Both the position numbers and the translations under genes were made by a program. Below the pieces are notes generated by a model. It ran no database searches. It saw only the letters and a program-made list of their open reading frames with translations, and was not told the origin of the DNA. From positions 1 to 38,915 of the forward strand of contig CAISPN010000121.1 of the NCBI GenBank assembly GCA_903887375.1: a stretch of 38,915 nt of DNA, written 5' to 3'. This document shows, one piece after another, positions 913-38,915 of this stretch. This DNA is from an uncultured cyanobacterium. Its GTDB lineage: Bacteria > Cyanobacteriota > Cyanobacteriia > Cyanobacteriales > Microcystaceae. The stretch's first letter is position 1, and each line of letters starts with the position of its first letter.

Positions 913-2316
913 ATGAGTAAAGGCACTCTATTTGATAAGGTTTGGGATCTCCATACAGTAGGAGTTTTACCTTCAGGTCAGACACAGATATTCATTGGAC
1001 TTCACTTAATCCATGAAGTTACAAGTCCACAGGCTTTTGGTATGCTCGCTGAGCGTCAGCTCAAAGTTCTCTACCCCGAAAGAACAGTGGCAACAGTTGA
1101 CCACATTATTCCCACTAAAAATCAAGTCCGTCCATTTCTAGATGATTTGGCCGAGGAGATGATGCAAACTCTAGAAAATAATGCCAACAATCACAGCATT
1201 CGTTTTTACAATATTGGCTCAGGTAAACAGGGAATTGTTCATGTTATAGCGCCAGAGCAGGGATTGACCCAGCCTGGGATGACTATTGCCTGTGGAGATT
1301 CCCATACCTCCACTCATGGCGCCTTTGGAGCTATAGCTTTAGGAATAGGTACTTCTCAAGTGAGGGATATTCTTGCTACCCAGACTTTGGCTTTAGGTAA
1401 ACTCAAGGTAAGGCGTGTTGAGGTCAACGGAAAGCTCAGACCCGGAGTCTATGCTAAAGATGTCATACTCCATATAATTCGCAAACTGGGAGTTCAAGGC
1501 GGGGTTGGCTATGCCTATGAGTTTGCTGGTGGTACTATCGACCAGATGAGTATGGAAGAGAGAATGACCATCTGCAATATGTCTATTGAAGGGGGCGCTC
1601 GTTGTGGTTATGTCAACCCTGATGAAATAACCTATAAATACCTTGAAGGTAGAGAGTTTGCTCCCAGGGGAGAAAATTGGGATGCAGCATTGCAATGGTG
1701 GCAAAGCCTAGCCAGTGAGCCTGATGCTATCTATGATGATGTAGTTATCTTCCAAGCAGAAGATATCGAACCAACAGTTACTTGGGGAATTACTCCAGGT
1801 CAAAGTGTTGGGGTAGCTGAAGCAATACCAACTTTAGAAGATCTACCCGCAGGAGATCGTGCTACTGCCCAAGAAGCCTATCAATATATGAAGTTGACTC
1901 CCGGCAGCCCAATTAAAGGCACTAAAGTGGATGTCTGCTTTATTGGTAGTTGTACCAACGGTAGGATCTCCGATTTGAGAGAAGCAGCCAAATTTGCTCA
2001 AGGTCATAAGGTAGCTCCTGGGGTCAAAGCTCTAGTTGTTCCAGGCTCGGAACAGGTGAAAAAGGCCGCTGAGCTTGAAGGACTTGACAAGATTTTTGAG
2101 CAAGCTGGCTTTGAGTGGCGTGAGGCTGGGTGCTCGATGTGTTTGGCTATGAATCCTGATAAATTACAAGGGGATCAAATCAGCGCATCTTCTTCTAATC
2201 GTAATTTCAAAGGTCGTCAGGGCTCTTCTACAGGCCGCACCTTATTGATGAGCCCAGCTATGGTAGTAGCAGCCGCAATCACTGGAAAGGTAGCTGATGT
2301 GCGTGAACTTCTATAG
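913..2316 (+). CDS. leuC: 3-isopropylmalate dehydratase, large subunit
   Basis: This is the large subunit of isopropylmalate isomerase, which converts 2-isopropylmalate to 3-isopropylmalate in leucine synthesis, as a heterodimer with LeuD. Its 467 residues match the family length. The 4Fe-4S cluster ligands are visible as GSCTNGR (about residue 346) and [11 protein letters not shown] (about 406 and 409), with the aconitase-type [12 protein letters not shown] motif near residue 130. leuD follows 15 bases downstream and ilvC after that, so the three are probably one branched-chain amino acid operon ending at the terminator at 4002-4026. No attenuator or leader peptide was seen upstream. Confidence 0.97.
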
Positions 2317-2331
2317 GGAAAGTTAAAAACA

Positions 2332-2922
2332 ATGAGTCAAATTAAACAAATTACTGCCCGTGCCATACCCTTAGTGGGAGATGATATCGATACTGATCGG
2401 ATTATTCCTGCTCGTTTTTTGCGCTGTGTAACTTTTGAAGGTTTAGGCAAAGAAGTCTTTAAAGATGATCGCCAGCAAGCTAGTGGCAATCACCCCTTTG
2501 ATGCGCCCCAGTATCAAGGAGCTAATATTTTAGTAACTAATGCTAACTTTGGCTGTGGATCATCTAGAGAGCATGCTCCCCAATCACTAGCTAAATGGGG
2601 AATCAAGGCGATTATAGCCGAAAGTTTTGCTGAGATTTTCTTTGGCAATTGTGTGGTACTTGGTTTGCCCTGTCTCAAAATTGAACCAGAAGTATCCCGA
2701 AAATTGCAGCAAGATATAGCAAATCTACCTGATCAGCAAATAACTATCGATCTGGAAAACTTGAGCGTAACTTGGTCTGGTGGCTCAGCTAAAGTTACTA
2801 TTGATGAAGGATCTCGCCAGAGTTTACTTAGCGGTACCTGGGACAGTTGCGCTCAACTATTAAAGAATAAAACAGCAATTGATAGTACTAGCAAAAAGAT
2901 TCCTTACCTAGCTTGGCGCTAG
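2332..2922 (+). CDS. leuD: 3-isopropylmalate dehydratase, small subunit
   Basis: This is the swivel-domain partner of LeuC in the second step of leucine synthesis. Its 196 residues include DIDTDRIIPARFL near the N-terminus and the NFGCGSSREHAP substrate loop near residue 75, both typical of LeuD. It starts 15 bases after the leuC stop, which implies co-transcription and probably balanced subunit synthesis. The last 20 residues after the core domain are less conserved, which is normal for the family. Confidence 0.97.
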   Translation: MSQIKQITARAIPLVGDDIDTDRIIPARFLRCVTFEGLGKEVFKDDRQQASGNHPFDAPQYQGANILVTNANFGCGSSREHAPQSLAKWGIKAIIAESFAEIFFGNCVVLGLPCLKIEPEVSRKLQQDIANLPDQQITIDLENLSVTWSGGSAKVTIDEGSRQSLLSGTWDSCAQLLKNKTAIDSTSKKIPYLAWR

Positions 2923-2984
2923 TGATTTGCTGAACTTTCTAATTTATAATGAAGAGTTTGGACTGTCTGAAACAAGAGAAATAA

Positions 2985-3986
<1,002 letters not shown>

Positions 3987-5509: not shown

Positions 5510-8500
5510 ATGGATAACAAGCTTTATAACCAAGATAAAACTCCCTTCATGGGACAGAGTTGGCTAGTAGAAGAAAGGGATGCTTGTGGAGTAGGATTTA
5601 TAGCATCGCTCAAGGGAGAACAAACCCACAGTTTAATTGTCAAAACTCTATCTGCTTTGGGATGTTTAGAGCATCGGGGTGGTTGCAGTGCTGATAGAGA
5701 TTCAGGTGATGGCTCTGGCATCATGAGTGGGCTACCTCATGATGTATTTGCTCAGTGGTTTACCCAACAGGGGATTATCCAGCCGAATCCCGGATCATAT
5801 GGAGTGGCGATGGTCTTTCTTCCTCAAGATCCTAATAGAAGAGCCGAGCAAAAATTCCATATAGAAGAGATAGCCAAGAAAAAGGAATTTAAAATTTTAG
5901 GTTGGCGCGATGTTCCTATAAATTCCAAGGTCTTGGGTAGACAAGCTTTAGAAAACCAACCCCATATTGCCCAAGTATTTGTTCAACCATCTGAGGATTT
6001 AACTCCAGAGCAGATTGATCGGCTTTTGTATATTGTTCGTTCTGAAATAGGCAAGAAACTGGCTGATGATTTTTATATTTGCTCTTTTTCTTGTCGTACT
6101 ATAGTTTACAAGGGGATGGTCCGTAGTGAGATCTTAGGTCAATTCTATCTAGATCTGCAAGATCCCCTATATACTAGCTCATTTGCGGTCTATCATCGCC
6201 GCTTTAGTACAAATACCATGCCCAAATGGCCTCTAGCACAACCTATGAGGCTACTAGGTCACAATGGAGAAATCAATACCCTACTAGGTAATATCAACTG
6301 GATGAGTGCCAGAGAAAGTAACCTAGAATTCGATGGCTGGAATAAAGAAGATCTCCAAGCTCTCACTCCTATAGTCAATACCGCCAATAGTGACTCATTC
6401 AACCTTGATAGTGCTATGGAGCTGTTGGTGCGTGTAGGGCATAGTCCCTTGAAAGCAGCGATGATCCTCGTTCCTGAAGCCTATGACAAGCAGCCAGATC
6501 TGCAAAACTATCCTGAAATAGTAGATTTCTATGATTTCTACAGTGGAATTCAAGAACCCTGGGATGGTCCTGCTTTATTGGTTTTCAGTGATGGCAGTAC
6601 TGTTGGAGCCTGCCTAGATCGCAACGGTTTGAGACCTGCGCGCTATGCAATTACTGCTGATGATTATGTAATAGTGTCCTCGGAGGCTGGAGTAGTTTCC
6701 CTTGATGAAGCCAAGATTCTAGAAAAAGGCCGTCTTGGACCGGGTCAAATGATTGCAGTCGATCTCAATAGCCAAAAAATTCTCAAAAACTGGGAAATTA
6801 AACAAAAGATAGCTGCTGAGCATCCTTACGGTCAATGGGTAAAAAATTTACGTAAAGAGGTTAAACGCTCTAGCTTTAGACCTGAAACGTTGTTTGATAA
6901 TGGCGATCAGTTGCTGAAATATCAAACAGCTTTCGGCTATACCGCCGAGGATCTAGATATGGTTATCCAGCCAATGGCCTGGCAGGGAAAAGAGCCAATC
7001 TTCTGTATGGGAGATGATATCCCATTGGCAGTTCTTTCCCAAAAACCCCACCTTCTCTATGATTACTTCAAACAGCGTTTTGCCCAGGTAACCAATCCTG
7101 CTATAGATCCTCTGCGCGAAGCTTTAGTAATGTCACTCAATGTCTTTTTGGGTGAGCGGGGAAATCTACTCAATCCCGGCCAATCTGAGGCATCTTTGTT
7201 GAAATTATCTAGCCCTGTGCTCAATGAAACCGAATTGGCTCAAATTAAGCAATCTGGTTTTTCTGTTGGAGAAATTTCTACCCTATTTCCAATCACTGAT
7301 GGGCCCTCTGGTTTAGCAAACGCCTTAAATCAGCTCCAAAAGCAAGCCCAAGAAGCAGTAAATTCTGGTGCCAAAATCTTGATACTTACTGATCGCCCCC
7401 AAGGCAAGTATATAGATAGTGAGAATGCCTATATTCCTCCATTACTAGCTATAGGCACGGTGCATCAATTTTTGATCCGCAAAGGGCTAAGGTTGAAAGT
7501 TTCCCTAATTGCCGATACAGCCCAATGTTGGAGTACCCATCATTATGCTTGTCTGATTGGCTATGGGGCTTCGGCTATATGTCCTTATCTGACCCTAGAG
7601 AGCATTAAGCAGACTTGGGCAGATACCAGAACTCAAAATCTGATGAAAAATGGCAAACTAGAAGCCATAGAACTAGAGGTTGCTTTGACTCGCTACCGCA
7701 AGGGGGTTGAAGCCGGTTTACTCAAAATTCTCTCCAAAATGGGAATTTCTCTACTTACCTCTTATCATGGCGCTCAAATTTTTGAAGCCATTGGCTTAGG
7801 TAGAGAGCTTATAGAGATTGCCTTTAGTGGAACTACTTCGCGAGTTGGCGGACTGAGCGTTGAAGATTTAGCCCATGAAATAGTCACTTTCCATTCCAAG
7901 GCTTACCCTGAGCTCAGCCAGAAAAAACTGGAAAACTACGGTTTTGTCAATTATCGCAATGGTGGTGAATATCATATGAATTCACCAGAGATGGCCAAAC
8001 ATCTGCACAAGGCTGTAGCTGCCTATAAAGATGGTGCTGGTTATGACCACTATGAGCACTATCGGCAATATCTTCAAGCAAGACCGGCTACTGCCTTAAG
8101 AGATCTTTTGGAGTTTAATAGTGATTCGCAACCTATTTCTTTGGATCAGGTGCAGTCAGTGGAAGAAATCATCAAGCTATTTTGCACCGGTGGTATGTCC
8201 CTAGGAGCTCTCTCACGCGAAGCTCATGAGACTTTAGCTATTGCCATGAACCGCATAGGTGGTAAGTCTAATTCTGGCGAAGGAGGCGAAGATCCCAAGC
8301 GCTATAATCTCCTAGATGATGTAGATTCTCAAGGAAAAAGCAGCACATTTCCTCATCTCAATGGTTTGCGCAATGGCGATAGTGCCCGTTCTGCAATCAA
8401 ACAAGTAGCTTCTGGTCGTTTTGGAGTTACTCCAGAATATCTCATGAGCGCAGATCAGATTGAAATCAAATTGGCCCAAGGAGCCAAACCAGGAGAAGGT

Positions 8501-10120
8501 GGACAGTTACCTGGCAAAAAAGTTAGCCCTTATATTGCCATGTTAAGACGCTCCAAGCCTGGAGTGGATTTAATATCACCACCACCACATCATGATATCT
8601 ATTCAATCGAAGATCTAGCCCAATTGATTTTTGACCTGCATCAGATTAATCCTGCTGCTAAGGTTTCTGTCAAATTGGTAGCCGAAATTGGTATCGGTAC
8701 TATTGCAGCCGGTGTAGCCAAAGCTAATGCCGACATCATCCAGATTTCTGGACATGATGGTGGAACGGGCGCTTCTCCTTTGAGCTCGATCAAGCATGCT
8801 GGCGCGCCTTGGGAATTAGGACTGACTGAAGTTCATAGGGTCTTATTGGAAAATCAGCTCAGAGACCGTGTAATTCTGCGGGCTGATGGTGGCTTAAAAA
8901 CGGGCTGGGATATTGTCATGGCCGCTTTAATGGGGGCAGAAGAATTTGGCTTTGGTTCTATCTCTATGATCGCTGAAGGCTGCATTATGGCCAGAGTATG
9001 TCATACCAACAACTGTCCAGTTGGAGTAGCAACCCAGCAAGAAAGTTTGCGCCAGCGCTTCAAGGGAATTCCCGAAAATGTGGTCAATTTCTTCTATTTT
9101 GTAGCCGAAGAAGTGCGCTCTATTTTGGCTCAGTTGGGTTACCGTAGCCTAAAAGAATTAGTAGGCAGAAGCGATCTTCTCAAAACCAGAGAGAATCTTC
9201 AACTTGTCAAAACCAGCAGTCTCAACCTAGATTGTCTGCTCAAACTGCCACCAGTCAAGCAGGATCGCTCTTGGCTTGAACATGGACCAGTACATGAAAA
9301 TGGAGAAGTTCTAGATGATAAAATTCTCTCTGATCCAGCAATTATCCAGGCTATCGAAAAACAAGAAGTCATTAGTAAGCAGTACAGTATTGTCAATACT
9401 GATCGGACAGTGGGAACTCGTCTTTCTGGAGTAATTGCTAAAAAATACGGCAATACCGGTTTTTCTGGTGAGATAACCCTCAAATTTAAAGGTTCTGCTG
9501 GACAGAGCTTTGGTGCTTTCAGCTTGCCTGGAATTAAATTGATTCTTGAAGGTGAGGCTAATGACTATGTGGGCAAAGGTCTTCATGGTGGTGAAATCAT
9601 TATAGTTCCACATCAAGAAGCTGCCTACCAGGCATCTGAAAATGTAATCATAGGCAATACCTGCCTTTATGGCGCAACTGGTGGAGTGCTTTATGCCAAT
9701 GGGCGAGCTGGTGAAAGGTTTGCTGTGCGAAATTCTCTAGCCAAGGCGGTCATTGAAGGAGCCGGAGATCACTGCTGTGAATATATGACTGGCGGTGTGG
9801 TTGTTGTCCTCGGCGCTGTGGGTCGCAATGTCGGAGCTGGTATGACTGGCGGTATTGCCTACTTCCTCGATGAGCAGGGTAATTTCCCAGAAAAAATCAA
9901 TAGTGAAATTATTAAAATTCAGCCTGTCACTGCTCCTTCTGGTATTGCTCAACTCCAAGAGTTGATTAGTAATCATGTTGAGCGAACAGGCAGTCCCAAG
10001 GGGCGCTTGATTTTGGAAAAATTTGCCGATTACCTTCCTCTATTTTGGCAAGCAGTTCCGCCTTCAGAAGCCAATTCCCCTGAGGCTAATGCAGAAGATA
10101 AAACCCTAACTTCGGTTTAA
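5510..10120 (+). CDS. gltS: Ferredoxin-dependent glutamate synthase
   Basis: Fd-GOGAT makes two glutamates from glutamine and 2-oxoglutarate with electrons from photosynthetic ferredoxin. It is the main entry of ammonium nitrogen after glutamine synthetase. The 1536 residues match the full family length. The order is: class II glutaminase with nucleophile C26 (ERDACGVGF), so a 25-residue propeptide is probably removed; a central domain; the FMN/2-oxoglutarate barrel (about 860-1210); a 3Fe-4S site ([16 protein letters not shown], from about 1157); and a C-terminal GXGXG beta-helix (about 1290-1480). No small NADPH subunit gene is adjacent, consistent with the ferredoxin type. I found no GTA-N8-TAC NtcA box or glutamine aptamer upstream. 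Confidence 0.96.
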
Positions 10121-32161: not shown

Positions 32162-33397
32162 TTAAAGCGGGAGATTTTGCGAATGTAGTTTAAAACTATT
32201 GAGCTCACCAGCGATTGCTGCTCCTGCATTAATCAAAACTGTGATAATTGGGTCAACTCCTAAAAATACTCCCAAAAAGACAGCGCTCAGGTTGAGTGAT
32301 GTAGCAATACCTATGCTTTGGTAAATCGTAGAGATGGTCTGTTGGGACAAAGTGATAGATTCTTCAATGTTTTGAAGATCATCTTGGTCTTTAAGCTCAA
32401 TTTTACTGCCATCTTGGCCAAGAACCAAATAAGAGCCCTCTATATAGGCGAGATTTTTGCCTTGCTCTTGGGCTGAGTCATTAGATACAACGAGCGCATC
32501 TACTTGAGCTAACTTTTCTAAAGTTTTGCCATCGGGAATATAAACGCCGTATTGTTCTGCTTTTTCTAGGGCAGATACTACAGCTAGAGGAGTGATACCC
32601 CTCAAAGAAAGTCCGAAGTTTAAAGGAAGCCAAGCGCTAGCTCGAGAAAAATCGTTTGTTACTATACCAGTAATACCAGCTAAAACTAAAATAGGTATGA
32701 TTGATCTTTGGGTAATGGGTTGAATTTGCCCTAATAGTTCTGTTTCTGTCAATTTTGGATCTTCGGGAAAGTTTAATTGATTCTCTATTTGCTTTATATT
32801 TGTCTGTCTGAAATTCTCCCCAACTTGCGATAAATTTAAAGCCAAAGCGGCAGCTACTGGATTACCTAGTAACAATTGAGAACTCAGCCATAGAGCATCT
32901 ACACTATCAAAATTGATTGGATTTTCCCTGTTGTTGCTGACTCTTTGCCATAGGGGGCCAGCAGCAGCTACAATTATTCCACCTACTACCACTAAAGGTA
33001 ACTCAAAAGGCGCTGCAACTACACTTGTGACCAATGCCAAAATAGGTAAAGCCATATTATTTTCTTGTTGGCTAATCAGATTATTGGTAATAGGCTCACT
33101 TAAAGTGGCTTTACGAATTATGTGATCAAGATAGTTTAAAAAATCTTGCTTATTAGTATTTTCATTGCTGTAAGAAACTACTAGAGAACTGGCATCTAAA
33201 TTGAAACGATAATCAGTAATTATTGGACTAGATAAAATTAATTTTTCTAAGTTAGAACTATAAAACTCATCTTGCTGTAGAAGCGGAATTTTTAGCCTAA
33301 AACGATCTCCAATAGAATGAACTATATTATATTCAACTAAAGGGAGCTGAGGAACTGGTTTAGGCTTGCTGAGATTAGTTCTTTTAGTTCTTTTCAT
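32162..33397 (-). CDS. HMA-like domain plus catalytically empty P-type ATPase membrane core
   Basis: This 411-residue protein has an N-terminal HMA-like domain (VEYNIVHSIGDRFRLKIPLL, about 21-95) followed by membrane segments that follow the order of P1B-type metal ATPases. LSLRGITPLAVVSALEKAEQ (near 263-282) and KTLEKLAQVDALVV (291-304) match the helix leading to the phosphorylation site, and QTISTIYQSIGIAT and INAGAAIAGELNSFKL match the last helix pair. The phosphorylation motif DKTGT reads SNDSA (305-309), the CPx motif is gone, the actuator domain is reduced to about 30 residues, and the P/N domains to about 35. It cannot pump by the P-type mechanism. It is probably a membrane scaffold or sensor in one operon with the next two genes. 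Confidence 0.75.
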   Translation of the reverse strand: MKRTKRTNLSKPKPVPQLPLVEYNIVHSIGDRFRLKIPLLQQDEFYSSNLEKLILSSPIITDYRFNLDASSLVVSYSNENTNKQDFLNYLDHIIRKATLSEPITNNLISQQENNMALPILALVTSVVAAPFELPLVVVGGIIVAAAGPLWQRVSNNRENPINFDSVDALWLSSQLLLGNPVAAALALNLSQVGENFRQTNIKQIENQLNFPEDPKLTETELLGQIQPITQRSIIPILVLAGITGIVTNDFSRASAWLPLNFGLSLRGITPLAVVSALEKAEQYGVYIPDGKTLEKLAQVDALVVSNDSAQEQGKNLAYIEGSYLVLGQDGSKIELKDQDDLQNIEESITLSQQTISTIYQSIGIATSLNLSAVFLGVFLGVDPIITVLINAGAAIAGELNSFKLHSQNLPL

Positions 33398-33483: not shown

Positions 33484-33798
33484 TTATTCGGAAATATTTA
33501 CTTCTTTGGGCTCAGAGGGAGCTTTTGAGTTTTGAGAAGTTTTAATTTCTGATTGAGCTTCTGCTACTAAGTCATTCCAAGATTCACTAGCTTCAGCAAT
33601 GGTTCCTTGAACTTTTTCAAAAGTATCAATACCCCATTTGATGCCACTTTTAGTCATATCGCGTCCTGATTCAGAAATTGTTTTACCAGCTTCAGTGTTG
33701 CCAAGCAGACTAACTGCGCTGCCTACAGCAAGAGCTGCTGCGCCTAAACTAAAAGCCACAACTGGCTCTATTCCTAAAAATAATGCTTCGAAATCCAT
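33484..33798 (-). CDS. DUF5132-like single-helix membrane protein
   Basis: This 104-residue protein has one N-terminal hydrophobic, Gly/Ala-rich helix (VVAFSLGAAALAVGSAVSLL, about 13-32) and an amphipathic charged tail (SGIKWGIDTFEKVQGTIAEA, then NDLVAEAQSEI). The tail pattern resembles, from memory, the DUF5132 family (x-AIKxG..YEK..AE..E..DLVAEA), whose members sit next to HMA-type ATPase genes. The C-terminal 20 residues are polar. It lies between the two HMA-like genes (gaps of 111 and 86 bases) on the same strand, so it probably forms part of the same complex. Its function is unknown. Confidence 0.6.
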   Translation of the reverse strand: MDFEALFLGIEPVVAFSLGAAALAVGSAVSLLGNTEAGKTISESGRDMTKSGIKWGIDTFEKVQGTIAEASESWNDLVAEAQSEIKTSQNSKAPSEPKEVNISE

Positions 33799-33909: not shown

Positions 33910-34653
33910 TTATATTTTTTTATTTTTTGGTAATTGAGCAAACCAAAGATCATCACTTACTTGGCTACCGATTGCCCCTCCTACTATTCTTCCAAAAATC
34001 AGGCCAGGAATACCTAAAGTAGCAGAACCAATTGCCCCTCCTACTAATCCACCTAAGGACTCCATCATAATTTCTCTTCCCCCTCTTTCTAAAACCTTCG
34101 CCAGATCTGGTATGGGCGCTTTGTTTTGCTGAAAGTTACGTAGGCTATCTACTGCCACTTGGCCGCCTATGACCTGTCCAACAAAGCTGCCAATATTTCT
34201 ACCAGGAATCATGCCCAAGGGTCCCAGTAACATTCTACCGGTTACAATACCAAATCCCCTGCCGATAACTTGTCCGGCAGATGAGCCAACAATTCTTCCA
34301 CCAAGCTCTTGTAGTGGATTATCTATAGGTAGTTTGAGATGGAATTCATCTTGCGCTGTTTGCTCTTTAAAATCTGCTGGGGTAATCTGCTGGATTGACT
34401 TGAGAAGATTCTCCCTGAAATTATGGAGACTAATTTTTGTAGATTGGTATAAAACTGTGACTGAGTTAGATTTAGGGTTTATTTTGATTTCGCTTACCCA
34501 GGCAATAGAAAGCAAGAGAGTCTCTAGCCTATTTTGAAGAGATGGGTAATCTTGCAGCCAGAATATACGCACCCTCAAGCGTCCTTCTATTTGGTGGATT
34601 ACTTGAACTGCTGAGCTAGTCGGGGTTTCACTAACTTGTTCGACCTGAATCAC
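33910..34653 (-). CDS. CoBaHMA-like domain fused to two glycine-zipper hairpins (calcyanin-like architecture)
   Basis: This protein has 247 residues. Residues about 15-90 form an HMA-like fold with a basic first strand (VIHQIEGRLRVRI) and a second block (VSEIKINPKSNSVTVLYQ), but no metal-binding CxxC, as in the CoBaHMA subfamily. Next come two glycine-zipper hairpins. In the first, Gly recurs every fourth residue at 119, 123, 127, 131, 135, 139, then after a GPLG turn at 147, 151, 155, 159, 163. In the second, at 201, 205, 209, then after an LGIP turn at 217, 221, 225, 229. Calcyanin, the marker of intracellular CaCO3 formation, has three such units. The start is GTG 34653, divergent from ilvD. 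The function is inferred only. Confidence 0.7.
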   Translation of the reverse strand: MIQVEQVSETPTSSAVQVIHQIEGRLRVRIFWLQDYPSLQNRLETLLLSIAWVSEIKINPKSNSVTVLYQSTKISLHNFRENLLKSIQQITPADFKEQTAQDEFHLKLPIDNPLQELGGRIVGSSAGQVIGRGFGIVTGRMLLGPLGMIPGRNIGSFVGQVIGGQVAVDSLRNFQQNKAPIPDLAKVLERGGREIMMESLGGLVGGAIGSATLGIPGLIFGRIVGGAIGSQVSDDLWFAQLPKNKKI

Positions 34654-34736: not shown

Positions 34737-36419
34737 ATGTCCGAGAACCGAAGAAGTAAAATAGTAACTGAGGGAGTACAAAGATCGCCTAACCGGGCCA
34801 TGTTGAGAGCTGTAGGCTTTGGAGATAGTGATTTCACCAAGCCCATTGTCGGCCTAGCCAATGGTTATAGTACTATTACCCCCTGCAACATGGGAATTGG
34901 GGAACTAGCTAAAGCTGCGGAAAAAGGGCTAAGTGAAGCAGGTTCCATGCCTCAGGTATTCGGCACTATAACCATCAGTGACGGTATATCAATGGGAACC
35001 GAGGGAATGAAATACTCTCTAGTTTCACGCGAGGTTATTGCTGATTCGATTGAAACTGTCTGTAATGGGCAAAGTCTAGATGGAGTTTTAGCCATTGGGG
35101 GTTGTGATAAAAACATGCCCGGTGCGATGATCGCTATGGCTAGATTGAATATACCGGCGATTTTTGTCTATGGTGGTACTATTAAGCCTGGGCATTACAA
35201 AGGTCAAGATCTAACTGTTGTAAGTTCTTTTGAGGCAGTAGGTCAGTATAGCGCCGGTAAGATTTCCCAGCAGGAGCTAACAGAAATTGAAAGAAATGCC
35301 TGCCCAGGCGCTGGCTCTTGTGGTGGTATGTATACAGCCAACACCATGTCTTCGGTCTTTGAAGCAATGGGTATGAGCCTGGCCTATTCTTCTACTATGG
35401 CGGCCGAAGATCCAGAAAAGCTAGAAAGTACAGAAAAATCAGCGTATGTACTGGTTGAGGCCATTCGCCGCCAAATTTTACCTAGCCAAATCTTAACTCG
35501 CAAAGCCTTTGAAAATGGGATTGCAGTGATTATGGCTATTGGCGGATCTACTAATGCCGTACTGCATCTGCTGGCGATCTCTCGTACTATAGGAGTGGAG
35601 CTCAGCATAGATGATTTTGAGACTATCCGACAAAAAGTTCCGGTACTTTGCGATCTCAAGCCATCTGGTCGCTATGTGGCTACTGATTTACATCGTTCAG
35701 GTGGAATTCCGCAGGTTATGAAAATTCTCCTTAACCATGGGTTACTTCATGGAGATGCTTTGACTATTTCTGGAGAGACGGTAGCTGAGGTTTTAGCCAA
35801 TGTTCCAGATCAGCCAGCAGCCAATCAAGATGTGATCAGACCTTGGGAAAATCCACTCTATGCTCAAGGGCATTTGGCTATCCTCAAGGGTAATTTAGCC
35901 ACACAAGGGGCTGTTGCCAAAATCAGTGGTGTTAAAAAGCCACAGATCACAGGACCTGCAAGGGTTTTCGAATCTGAAGAGCAATGTCTTGAGGCTATTT
36001 TAGCTAAAAAGATTCAACCGGGAGATGTCCTTGTTATTCGCAATGAAGGTCCTAAAGGCGGCCCAGGTATGCGCGAAATGTTGGCCCCAACTTCGGCAAT
36101 CATTGGCGCTGGCTTAGGCGATTCAGTTGCCCTTATTACTGATGGTCGTTTCTCTGGGGGAACCTATGGTTTGGTCGTTGGCCACGTTGCCCCTGAAGCT
36201 GCAGTTGGCGGAACTATAGCACTAGTAAAAGAAGGCGATAGTATTACTATCGATGCTCAGGCAAAACTATTGCAACTAAATGTCTCCCAAGAAGAACTAG
36301 AGCAAAGATCGGCTAATTGGCAACCTCCTCAACCTCGCTATAAAACCGGAGTTTTAGCTAAATATGCAAAGCTAGTTTGTTCTAGTAGTTTAGGCGCACT
36401 TACAGATTTAAATCTCTAA
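34737..36419 (+). CDS. ilvD: Dihydroxy-acid dehydratase
   Basis: This enzyme dehydrates dihydroxy acids to the 2-keto acids that lead to valine, isoleucine and leucine, directly after IlvC. Its 560 residues match the family. The Fe-S cluster cysteines appear as GGCDKNMPG (near 123) and [16 protein letters not shown] (near 189-195), and the C-terminal GRFSGGTYG is intact. The gene is separate from the leuC-leuD-ilvC operon, lying about 31 kb away. The ATG at 34737 is 83 bases from the divergent start at 34653. Confidence 0.97.
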
Positions 36420-37828: not shown

Positions 37829-37944
37829 TTACACTTTAAAGGTTTGGCTATTGAGTATGCGGACTATAATTAAGGTAGACCCCAACTAGGTAGTTTAAAA
37901 TTACTATTAAGATGGGTTCTTGCAATTATAGGTTCTGATTGATT

Positions 37945-38915
37945 ATGCTAGATGCCGTTATCATTTTGTTATTCGTTGTTGCATCGGCAGGGGTGGGATT
38001 TACTAGCGTAGATCTTCTGCCAGTTGAGATTCAAGAACAAATTTCCAATATAGAAGCCCTGCGTTGGTTAGCCGGTGGATTTGCCTCAGTAATCGGACTG
38101 GCAATTGGTTTGGTCGCTCAGACTACTTACCGCCGACTTGAGCTGAGGATTCGCAAAACTCCTATTGAGGTTATTTTAACGCGCGCTGTGGGTTTGGTGA
38201 TTGGCCTTTTGATTGCCAATTTAATGTTAGCGCCAATATTTCTGCTGCCTATTCCTAAAGAGTTTGTCTTTATCAAACCGTTAATCGCCATTTTGGGTAG
38301 CGTGATGTTTTCTTATTTGGGAGTTGGTTTAGCTGATACCCATGGGAGAACTTTTCTACGACTGATCAACCCCAATAGTATAGAGAGTCTTTTGGTAGCT
38401 GAAGGAACCTTGAAACCATCTCCTACTAAGATTATTGATACAAGTTGTATTATTGATGGCAGAATTGAACCTCTTTTAGAAACTGGCTTTATTGAGGGAC
38501 AAATCTTGGTGCCTAGATTTGTTTTGCAGGAATTGCAGCAGTTGGCTGATGCCAATAATGATCAAAAAAGGATGCGCGGTCGACGGGGATTAGACATATT
38601 AAATCGTCTGCAGGAGCTTTATCCTGAGCAGATAATCATACATCCTGCTGATTATGAAGATATCTCAACGGTTGATGCAAAATTAGTTCGTCTCTCCCAG
38701 GAAATCAATGCCACTCTTTTAACCAACGATTACAATCTCAGTAAAGTTGCTAATCTCCAGAAAGTTTCTATTCTCAATGTTAATGATCTAGCCCAAGCTG
38801 TTAGAGCTATTTATTTACCTGGGGATACCTTGGAGCTGAAAATACTCAAGTTAGGCAAAGAGCCAACTCAAGGGATTGGCTATTTAGAAGATGGGACTAT
38901 GGTCGTTGTAGAAGA
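37945..38915 (+). CDS. PIN/TRAM domain membrane protein (cut by window edge)
   Basis: Only the first 323 codons are present, and the frame remains open at the end. The N-terminus has about four hydrophobic helices (residues 1-130). A PIN-type nuclease domain follows from about 160: IIDTSCIIDGRIE carries the first acidic residue, with VPRFVLQELQQLAD and LLTNDYNLSK carrying others. The last visible residues (TLELKILKLGKEPTQGIGYL) begin a TRAM RNA-binding domain. The architecture matches YacL-type proteins. Ribonuclease activity is likely but not shown. Confidence 0.9.
   Translation, partial: MLDAVIILLFVVASAGVGFTSVDLLPVEIQEQISNIEALRWLAGGFASVIGLAIGLVAQTTYRRLELRIRKTPIEVILTRAVGLVIGLLIANLMLAPIFLLPIPKEFVFIKPLIAILGSVMFSYLGVGLADTHGRTFLRLINPNSIESLLVAEGTLKPSPTKIIDTSCIIDGRIEPLLETGFIEGQILVPRFVLQELQQLADANNDQKRMRGRRGLDILNRLQELYPEQIIIHPADYEDISTVDAKLVRLSQEINATLLTNDYNLSKVANLQKVSILNVNDLAQAVRAIYLPGDTLELKILKLGKEPTQGIGYLEDGTMVVVE

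Follow-up and report, generated by a model that had tools for sequence, protein, structure and literature searches.

Does a cyanobacterial gene for an HMA-type domain followed by two glycine-zipper (GlyZip) units encode calcyanin, or another protein built from the same parts? The question is raised by an open reading frame (ORF) near one end of a 38,915-nucleotide stretch of DNA from an uncultured member of the Microcystaceae, called the window here. Calcyanin (ccyA) was reportedly defined by Benzerara et al. in 2022 by three C-terminal GlyZip units behind a variable N-terminal domain, which is a CoBaHMA domain in one type. The CoBaHMA family, said to have been described by Gaschignard et al. 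in 2024, reportedly has conserved basic residues and no CxxC metal site. Calcyanin is described as associated, or possibly associated, with the intracellular carbonate of cyanobacteria (PMC12836880, PMC12746419). What exactly it does is still unclear, and neither Achromatium nor the magnetotactic bacteria that form carbonate were found to have it (PMC11773610). Searches for 'CoBaHMA' and 'DUF5132' found no papers in the literature covered, subscription journals being outside its scope.

The window gene, its neighbors and its conservation

The features of the locus, with their coordinates in the window, are:

33910..34653, minus strand: ORF of 247 amino acids with a CoBaHMA-like HMA_2 domain, GlyZip1 and GlyZip2 (by ORF, Pfam and unit models); the window gene
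34384..34617, minus strand: HMA_2/CoBaHMA-like domain, residues 13-90 (by Pfam, tree and motif)
34144..34314, minus strand: GlyZip1 unit, residues 114-170 (Z1 model, 43.6 bits)
33946..34080, minus strand: GlyZip2 unit, residues 192-236 (Z2 model, 32.0 bits)
33484..33798, minus strand: DUF5132 protein of 104 amino acids (PF17195, 29.1 bits, cut-off 25)
32162..33397, minus strand: HMA_2-like protein of 411 amino acids with P-type ATPase remnants (HMA_2 24.3 bits, below the cut-off of 30)
34737..36419, plus strand: ilvD, dihydroxy-acid dehydratase, a divergent housekeeping neighbor

The ORF coordinates and residue numbers of a first-pass annotation hold; the strand, which it had not given, is minus, with GTG at 34653 as the start codon. 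An ortholog with 71-72% identity and identical architecture is present in a MAG (G633) that was deposited separately from the window's genome (G000). The gene order hemW - ilvD - HMA-GlyZip2 - DUF5132 - ATPase-like is common to both genomes, ilvD adjoining the gene in G633 too. The dN/dS ratio between the orthologs is 0.13, as compared to 0.11 for hemW. By this comparison, the gene is under purifying selection and has been kept in another member of the genus, and its identical architecture in G633 and its dN/dS argue that it is not a decayed calcyanin gene. The two-zipper form of the CoBaHMA-GlyZip combination is thus genuine and conserved.

The genus was sampled with three genomes, and a gene of this type was not found in the third (G663; 90% complete). 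One locus of G663 has the order HMA_2 (187 amino acids) - DUF5132 - ATPase-like; another has the order DUF5132 - single-GlyZip protein - HMA_2 ATPase, the latter containing TGES and DKTGT and being truncated by the contig end.

The DUF5132 gene is located about 110 bp downstream of the window gene on the same strand, and its product is 91% identical to the G633 counterpart. In a DUF5132 tree, in which most inner forks are open and the bootstrap was unsettled, the window copy groups with those of G633 and G663 (99/98). The next nearest by path, with the forks between open, are the copies that are linked to genes for three-zipper, i.e., (GlyZip)3, proteins in genomes G573, G547 and G271. The 411-residue protein scored at best 47.4 bits with P-type ATPase models, far under the cut-off. 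The catalytic motifs of P-type ATPases are TGES, DKTGT and GDGxND, and since all three are absent, the protein is probably catalytically dead. It occurs in all three members of the genus and is 64.5% identical in G633, with a dN/dS of 0.20. The window's genome also encodes two HMA_2 ATPases (L072, L073) in which none of the three motifs is missing.

Neither the promoter scan of the window (10 vs. 7.4 in shuffles) nor the terminator scan (2 vs. 2.3) was clearly above shuffles, so that the window gene and its neighbors form a putative operon at most. The sole match in an Rfam scan of the window was one tRNA, and a PHROGs search with the window protein returned no family at E ≤ 0.01. Used as a single query against the PDB, the protein matched two chains of poly(A) polymerase GLD2 (E 0.045-0.08), which were taken as chance matches.

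A PIN-domain protein is encoded at 37939-38915 on the plus strand, 3.3 kb from the window gene. Its homologs with 64-67% identity directly follow an HMA-(GlyZip)3 gene in 11 out of 11 genomes of the Thermosynechococcus family that were compared (L018-L022, L024-L027, L029 and L023/L095; L169 is the L019 locus), and a homolog was beside none of ten other GlyZip loci in the same comparison. The position of the PIN gene is possibly a trace of an old linkage, or due to chance. At L027 (G154; 1471-3576), the HMA-(GlyZip)3 frame has no stop codon and continues into the PIN-domain gene, resulting in an ORF of 701 amino acids.

Domain architecture and relationship to calcyanin

The Pfam model HMA_2 (PF19991) matched residues 13-75 of the window protein with 36.2 bits (cut-off 30), and the HMA-like N-terminal domain proposed in the first-pass annotation was thus recovered by a profile search. 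That it lacks a metal-binding CxxC motif, as was also proposed, follows from the complete absence of cysteines in the protein. Like CoBaHMA and HMA_2 domains, it has conserved basic residues: H20, R25 and R27 are invariant in 11 aligned proteins, ten of which, including the window protein, match HMA_2 at E ≤ 0.01. A distinguishing feature is a W-L-x3-P motif (W32-L33-x3-P37) after the basic strand, which is found in six of the 80 HMA domains collected and is missing from the remaining 74. The same six form a clade (98/97) in the HMA tree, comprising the window protein, its G633 ortholog, a 182-residue and a plasmid-encoded protein of Gloeothece, a protein of G674 and a 113-residue protein of G573. 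The tree had 68 rows and 89 columns, with bootstraps unsettled; 12 of the 80 domains, mostly near-copies, were dropped, and domains below 28 bits (such as L034 and L038) were excluded. The G573 protein is a stand-alone HMA domain, which scored 29.2 bits, slightly under the Pfam cut-off, and shows 41% identity to residues 1-93 of the window protein.

When groups that were named post hoc were compared, one uniting the window pair with the calcyanin-type HMA domains was rejected (p-AU 0.027), whereas the calcyanin-type domains without the window pair (10 rows, with the divergent L159 left out) were not rejected as a group (p-AU 0.23). The window pair with single calcyanin sub-groups gave p-AU values of 0.072 and 0.070. 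The phylogeny thus supports placement of the window HMA domain in a subfamily other than the calcyanin-type one, in line with the earlier suggestion that the protein may represent a separate family.

Two AlphaFold2 models of the window protein were obtained, both of low confidence (mean pLDDT 52.7 and 65.2; three-row alignments). In the first, the HMA part (residues 11-90; pLDDT 55-76 by blocks of ten) has predicted strands at 16-22, 25-30, 53-59 and 64-69 and helices at 37-48 and 76-88. Against the PDB, a profile of the subfamily gave 12 sequences at E ≤ 1 (best E 0.001), each of them a metal ATPase or CopZ. Foldseek returned nothing at E ≤ 0.001 for the window model; the top two rows were RNA polymerase subunits, and many of the others were HMA domains.

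The recurrence of glycine at every fourth residue in two units with Gly/Pro turns, as described in the first-pass annotation, was borne out. Between residues 110 and 236, 15 pairs of glycines with i,i+4 spacing are present, a number that none of 100,000 shuffles reached (mean 5.8, maximum 14). Unit 1 has glycines at positions 118, 119, 123, 127, 131, 133, 135, 139, 144, 147, 151, 155, 159, 163 and 164 and the turn GPLG (144-147), and unit 2 at positions 201, 202, 205, 206, 209, 214, 217, 221, 225, 226 and 229 and the turn GIPG (214-217).

Models of the HMA domain and of GlyZip1, GlyZip2 and GlyZip3 (Z1, Z2 and Z3) were built from eight three-zipper proteins; the window protein, its genus and the divergent L034 were excluded. 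With Z1, Z2 and Z3, respectively, unit 1 scored 43.6, 23.1 and 11.7 bits and unit 2 scored 17.2, 32.0 and 9.4 bits, as compared to 4.8, 12.5 and 4.0 bits for the best of 200 shuffles. The best Z3 scores (11.7 and 9.4 bits) are above the shuffle value of 4.0, but both come from segments to which Z1 or Z2 gives a higher score. Thus, the window protein reads HMA-GlyZip1-GlyZip2 and lacks GlyZip3, which agrees with the two zippers, instead of the three of calcyanin, that were counted before. A GlyZip3 remnant downstream of the gene was considered and rejected on length, since the distance to DUF5132 is about 110 bp and a unit takes ~150 bp.

Four arginines in GlyZip1 (R120, R132, R140 and R152) are kept in G633, and each is located one residue after a zipper glycine. 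None of the four is present in 14 other aligned proteins, which have 0 or 1 R/K in that stretch; the Gloeothece plasmid protein, which is outside these 14, has a lysine at the first of the four positions. Since all four are one residue past a glycine, they are expected to lie on a single side of the helix, flanking its glycine face. Together with the modest hydropathy of the helices (0.4-0.9), they argue against deep insertion into the bilayer and would fit a protein held at the membrane surface better than a simple transmembrane hairpin. The helical hairpins suggested earlier were seen in part in the low-confidence AlphaFold2 models: unit 2 forms two helices in both (184-213 and 215-239 in the first), whereas unit 1 is a single long helix (113-177). 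Pfam glycine-zipper families stayed under their cut-offs in the window protein (Gly-zipper_Omp, 17.9 vs. 25 bits; DUF456, 21.1 vs. 29.4 bits).

At E ≤ 0.001, the window protein has matches in 62 of 388 genomes of the class, many of which are confined to the HMA domain. Those outside the genus that match best over the full length in this draw are proteins of 319-378 residues with an HMA domain and three zippers, which we take to be the calcyanin architecture; an order-wide draw of 388 genomes adds L047 and L048 (341-344 residues) with the same parts. The L020 protein is identical to that of a Thermosynechococcus MAG. With such proteins as closest full-length relatives outside the genus, the description of the window protein as a short calcyanin relative stands. 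A full-length profile of the eight three-zipper proteins scored 153 bits on it, whereas the best of 200 shuffles reached 8.3; the match spans positions 11-247 of the 342 in the model. However, this likeness is not exclusive, since L035 (144 bits) and L056 (138 bits), in which an HMA domain is joined to zippers of another, acidic type, score nearly as high. As in calcyanin, an HMA-type domain at the N terminus precedes GlyZip1 and GlyZip2, the order being unchanged and the glycines invariant. Unlike calcyanin, the window protein has no GlyZip3, its HMA domain groups with another subfamily in the tree, GlyZip1 carries the four arginines, and the gene adjoins those for DUF5132 and the putatively dead ATPase.

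The only two-zipper protein beyond the genus in the HMA clade of the window protein is the plasmid-encoded WP_013334253.1 ('HMA2 domain-containing protein') of Gloeothece verrucosa PCC 7822. It aligns over residues 17-240 with 27% identity; unlike the window protein, it has a longer linker and a gapped first unit. No DUF5132 gene was found in the 7.5 kb read on either side of its gene. At L093 (G535; 7971-8777), an HMA-GlyZip gene stops after GlyZip2, whereas its close relatives L047 and L048 continue to GlyZip3; inspection by eye of three frames over about 400 bases downstream found no GlyZip3. At L037 (G214), HMA-GlyZip1-GlyZip2 and GlyZip3 are split over two overlapping frames; as read from its sequence, this is a three-zipper gene that is frameshifted or misassembled.

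Three-zipper genes, CAX and gene neighborhoods

Another contig of the window's genome (C119) encodes a complete (GlyZip)3 protein of 232 residues without an HMA domain. Its units scored, in order, 36 (Z1), 40 (Z2) and 38 (Z3) bits with models built without it. Like the window protein, it has GlyZip1 and GlyZip2; unlike the window protein, it has GlyZip3 and no HMA domain. Judged by three units in order, the calcyanin candidate in this genome is thus the C119 gene instead of the window gene. The first-pass annotation was right in seeing a relative of calcyanin at the window locus but missed this better candidate, as well as the resemblance of the DUF5132/HMA_2 cluster to one beside (GlyZip)3 and CAX genes in G573. 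The G633 ortholog of the C119 protein shows 71% identity, with a dN/dS of 0.20. No DUF5132 or HMA gene was found in the 8-9 kb read on either side of the C119 gene. A copy of the C119 gene as the source of the window zippers was considered and rejected (p-AU 0.0023). Neither of two wider groupings of these zippers, i.e., with the C119 gene plus the g3 copies (p-AU 0.14) or with CoBaHMA calcyanins (p-AU 0.175), was rejected; from the zipper tree, 7 of 35 rows had been dropped beforehand.

A (GlyZip)3 profile was made from ten proteins, including those of C119 and G677, whose own scores are circular. It gave matches at E ≤ 1e-6 in 12 of 50 genomes of the family, whole-length in seven, and at E ≤ 1e-10 in 16 of 386 genomes of the phylum. 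In G573, the gene order is HMA_2 (203 amino acids) - HMA (113 amino acids, of the window's clade) - DUF5132 - (GlyZip)3 (349 amino acids) - CAX antiporter. The order is HMA_2 (195 amino acids) - DUF5132 - (GlyZip)3 - CAX in G547 and DUF5132 - (GlyZip)3 - CAX in G271, with a weak HMA match nearby; the 113-residue stand-alone HMA gene was found in neither. Two-zipper proteins of 222-224 residues without an HMA domain (L160, L162) occur in G573 and G271, both of which carry a (GlyZip)3 gene as well. The (GlyZip)3-linked CAX has a close homolog in the window's genome (69%; contig C18), in G633 and in G663, paralogs being at 40-50%; in the window's genome, neither this CAX nor the (GlyZip)3 gene shares a contig with the window gene. 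A CAX scoring above 400 bits, a threshold chosen post hoc, was found in 6 of 7 family genomes with a full-length (GlyZip)3 protein vs. 4 of the 43 others (Fisher p 8.5e-5, uncorrected for kinship).

DUF5132 genes were found within 5 kb of 12 of the 26 GlyZip genes examined, a non-random sample in which some loci had less than 5 kb of flank. At six loci (L093-L097 and L169), neither DUF5132 nor a second HMA gene was present in roughly 7 kb read per side; these genes carry their own calcyanin-type HMA domain, L094-L097 and L169 being HMA plus (GlyZip)3. Eight (GlyZip)3 genes have no HMA domain, and an HMA gene was located within 5 kb of three (L084, L085, L163) and not of the other five (L066, L067, L087, L090, L170). 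Thus, CoBaHMA domains and zippers are sometimes fused, sometimes encoded by neighbors and sometimes apart, which is a hint that they may work together. Divergent proteins of 302-326 residues are encoded at L166, L167 and L168 (G361, G332 and G335; family f16), with DUF5132 adjacent or overlapping at L167 and L168. They have two or three zipper units, most of which score low, and may be remote relatives of calcyanin in a family with small genomes.

Possible roles of the window protein

We give about an even chance to the window protein being a membrane-associated CoBaHMA-GlyZip adaptor that partners the (GlyZip)3 protein, hence a relative of calcyanin and not calcyanin itself, with a presumed role in calcium or carbonate handling. 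Its HMA domain would dock, via the basic strand, on an anionic partner such as the head groups of anionic lipids. The zipper helices with their arginine stripe would pack at or in the membrane, or else against those of the (GlyZip)3 protein, and DUF5132 and the dead ATPase would serve as structural partners or scaffold. The whole set may act in a Ca2+-handling module of calcyanin and the CAX antiporter; the calcium link of the window gene is drawn from the company of these genes. The work of one calcyanin polypeptide, with CoBaHMA domain and zippers, would be divided here between two proteins.

In favor of such an adaptor are the 153-bit profile match, the assignment of the units as Z1 and Z2, the synteny with G633 and the dN/dS of 0.13. 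The inclusion in the HMA clade of the 113-residue G573 protein, whose gene is beside DUF5132, (GlyZip)3 and CAX, argues in the same direction, as do the homologs of the linked CAX, its co-occurrence with (GlyZip)3, the DUF5132 genes near 12 of 26 GlyZip genes and the C119 protein itself. Against it are the scores of L035 and L056, the six loci with neither DUF5132 nor a second HMA gene, and the HMA genes near only three of eight HMA-less (GlyZip)3 genes, the C119 gene not being one of these three. The location of (GlyZip)3 and CAX on other contigs, the presence in G663 of DUF5132 and the dead ATPase without the two-zipper gene, the rejected grouping of the zippers with C119, and the failure to find the 113-residue gene in G547 and G271 also count against it, as do the low-confidence structure models and the modest hydropathy with four arginines.

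A somewhat less probable account is that these genes form a general cyanobacterial membrane module of CoBaHMA, DUF5132 and HMA_2-ATPase proteins, used in lipid or cation stress, with glycine-zipper tails and unrelated to carbonate biomineralization. HMA_2 domains are widespread, as the many HMA-only matches among the 62 class genomes illustrate, and the window's genome has two HMA_2 ATPases with intact motifs. Moreover, in G432 and G095 (L098, L099), genes for HMA domains with zippers of other types are within 5 kb of DUF5132 and other HMA_2 genes, and a search with the window protein gave one and two matches in these genomes, none of them a (GlyZip)3 protein. However, the window's genome encodes a (GlyZip)3 protein, and its CAX on contig C18 is closely homologous to the one linked to (GlyZip)3 in G573, G547 and G271, and the window's HMA subfamily includes the gene adjoining the G573 (GlyZip)3 locus. 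That the protein is a true calcyanin minus GlyZip3, which would still nucleate or bound intracellular carbonate alone, seems unlikely: it aligns over its full length with HMA-(GlyZip)3 proteins, sharing their order of parts and their invariant glycines, but GlyZip3 is absent in both genus members with the gene, only about 110 bp separate the gene from DUF5132, the HMA domain falls outside the calcyanin-type group in the tree, and a complete (GlyZip)3 protein is encoded elsewhere in the genome. A truncated or misassembled calcyanin gene is hardly credible; L093 likewise stops after GlyZip2, unlike its sisters, but in G633, a separate MAG, the gene has the same end, the same neighbors and a low dN/dS.

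The adaptor reading can be taken further to a split calcyanin, which we consider rather doubtful. In this small genus, one CoBaHMA-(GlyZip)3 polypeptide would be replaced by a pair, namely a bare (GlyZip)3 protein and a CoBaHMA-(GlyZip)2 adaptor that has acquired an arginine stripe, and their zippers would assemble in trans on the membrane, with DUF5132 and the dead CoBaHMA-ATPase, to control the storage of Ca2+ and carbonate.

A search for the calcyanin marker on architecture alone could choose the wrong gene in such genomes. The separation and recombination of the parts of calcyanin within one lineage gives a hint as to which of them cooperate, i.e., the CoBaHMA domain, the zippers, DUF5132 and CAX, and such a lineage points to new candidate partners. 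Since the CoBaHMA-(GlyZip)2 protein and the bare (GlyZip)3 protein occur in the same genus, the presence or absence of carbonate inclusions in its members would constitute a natural experiment.
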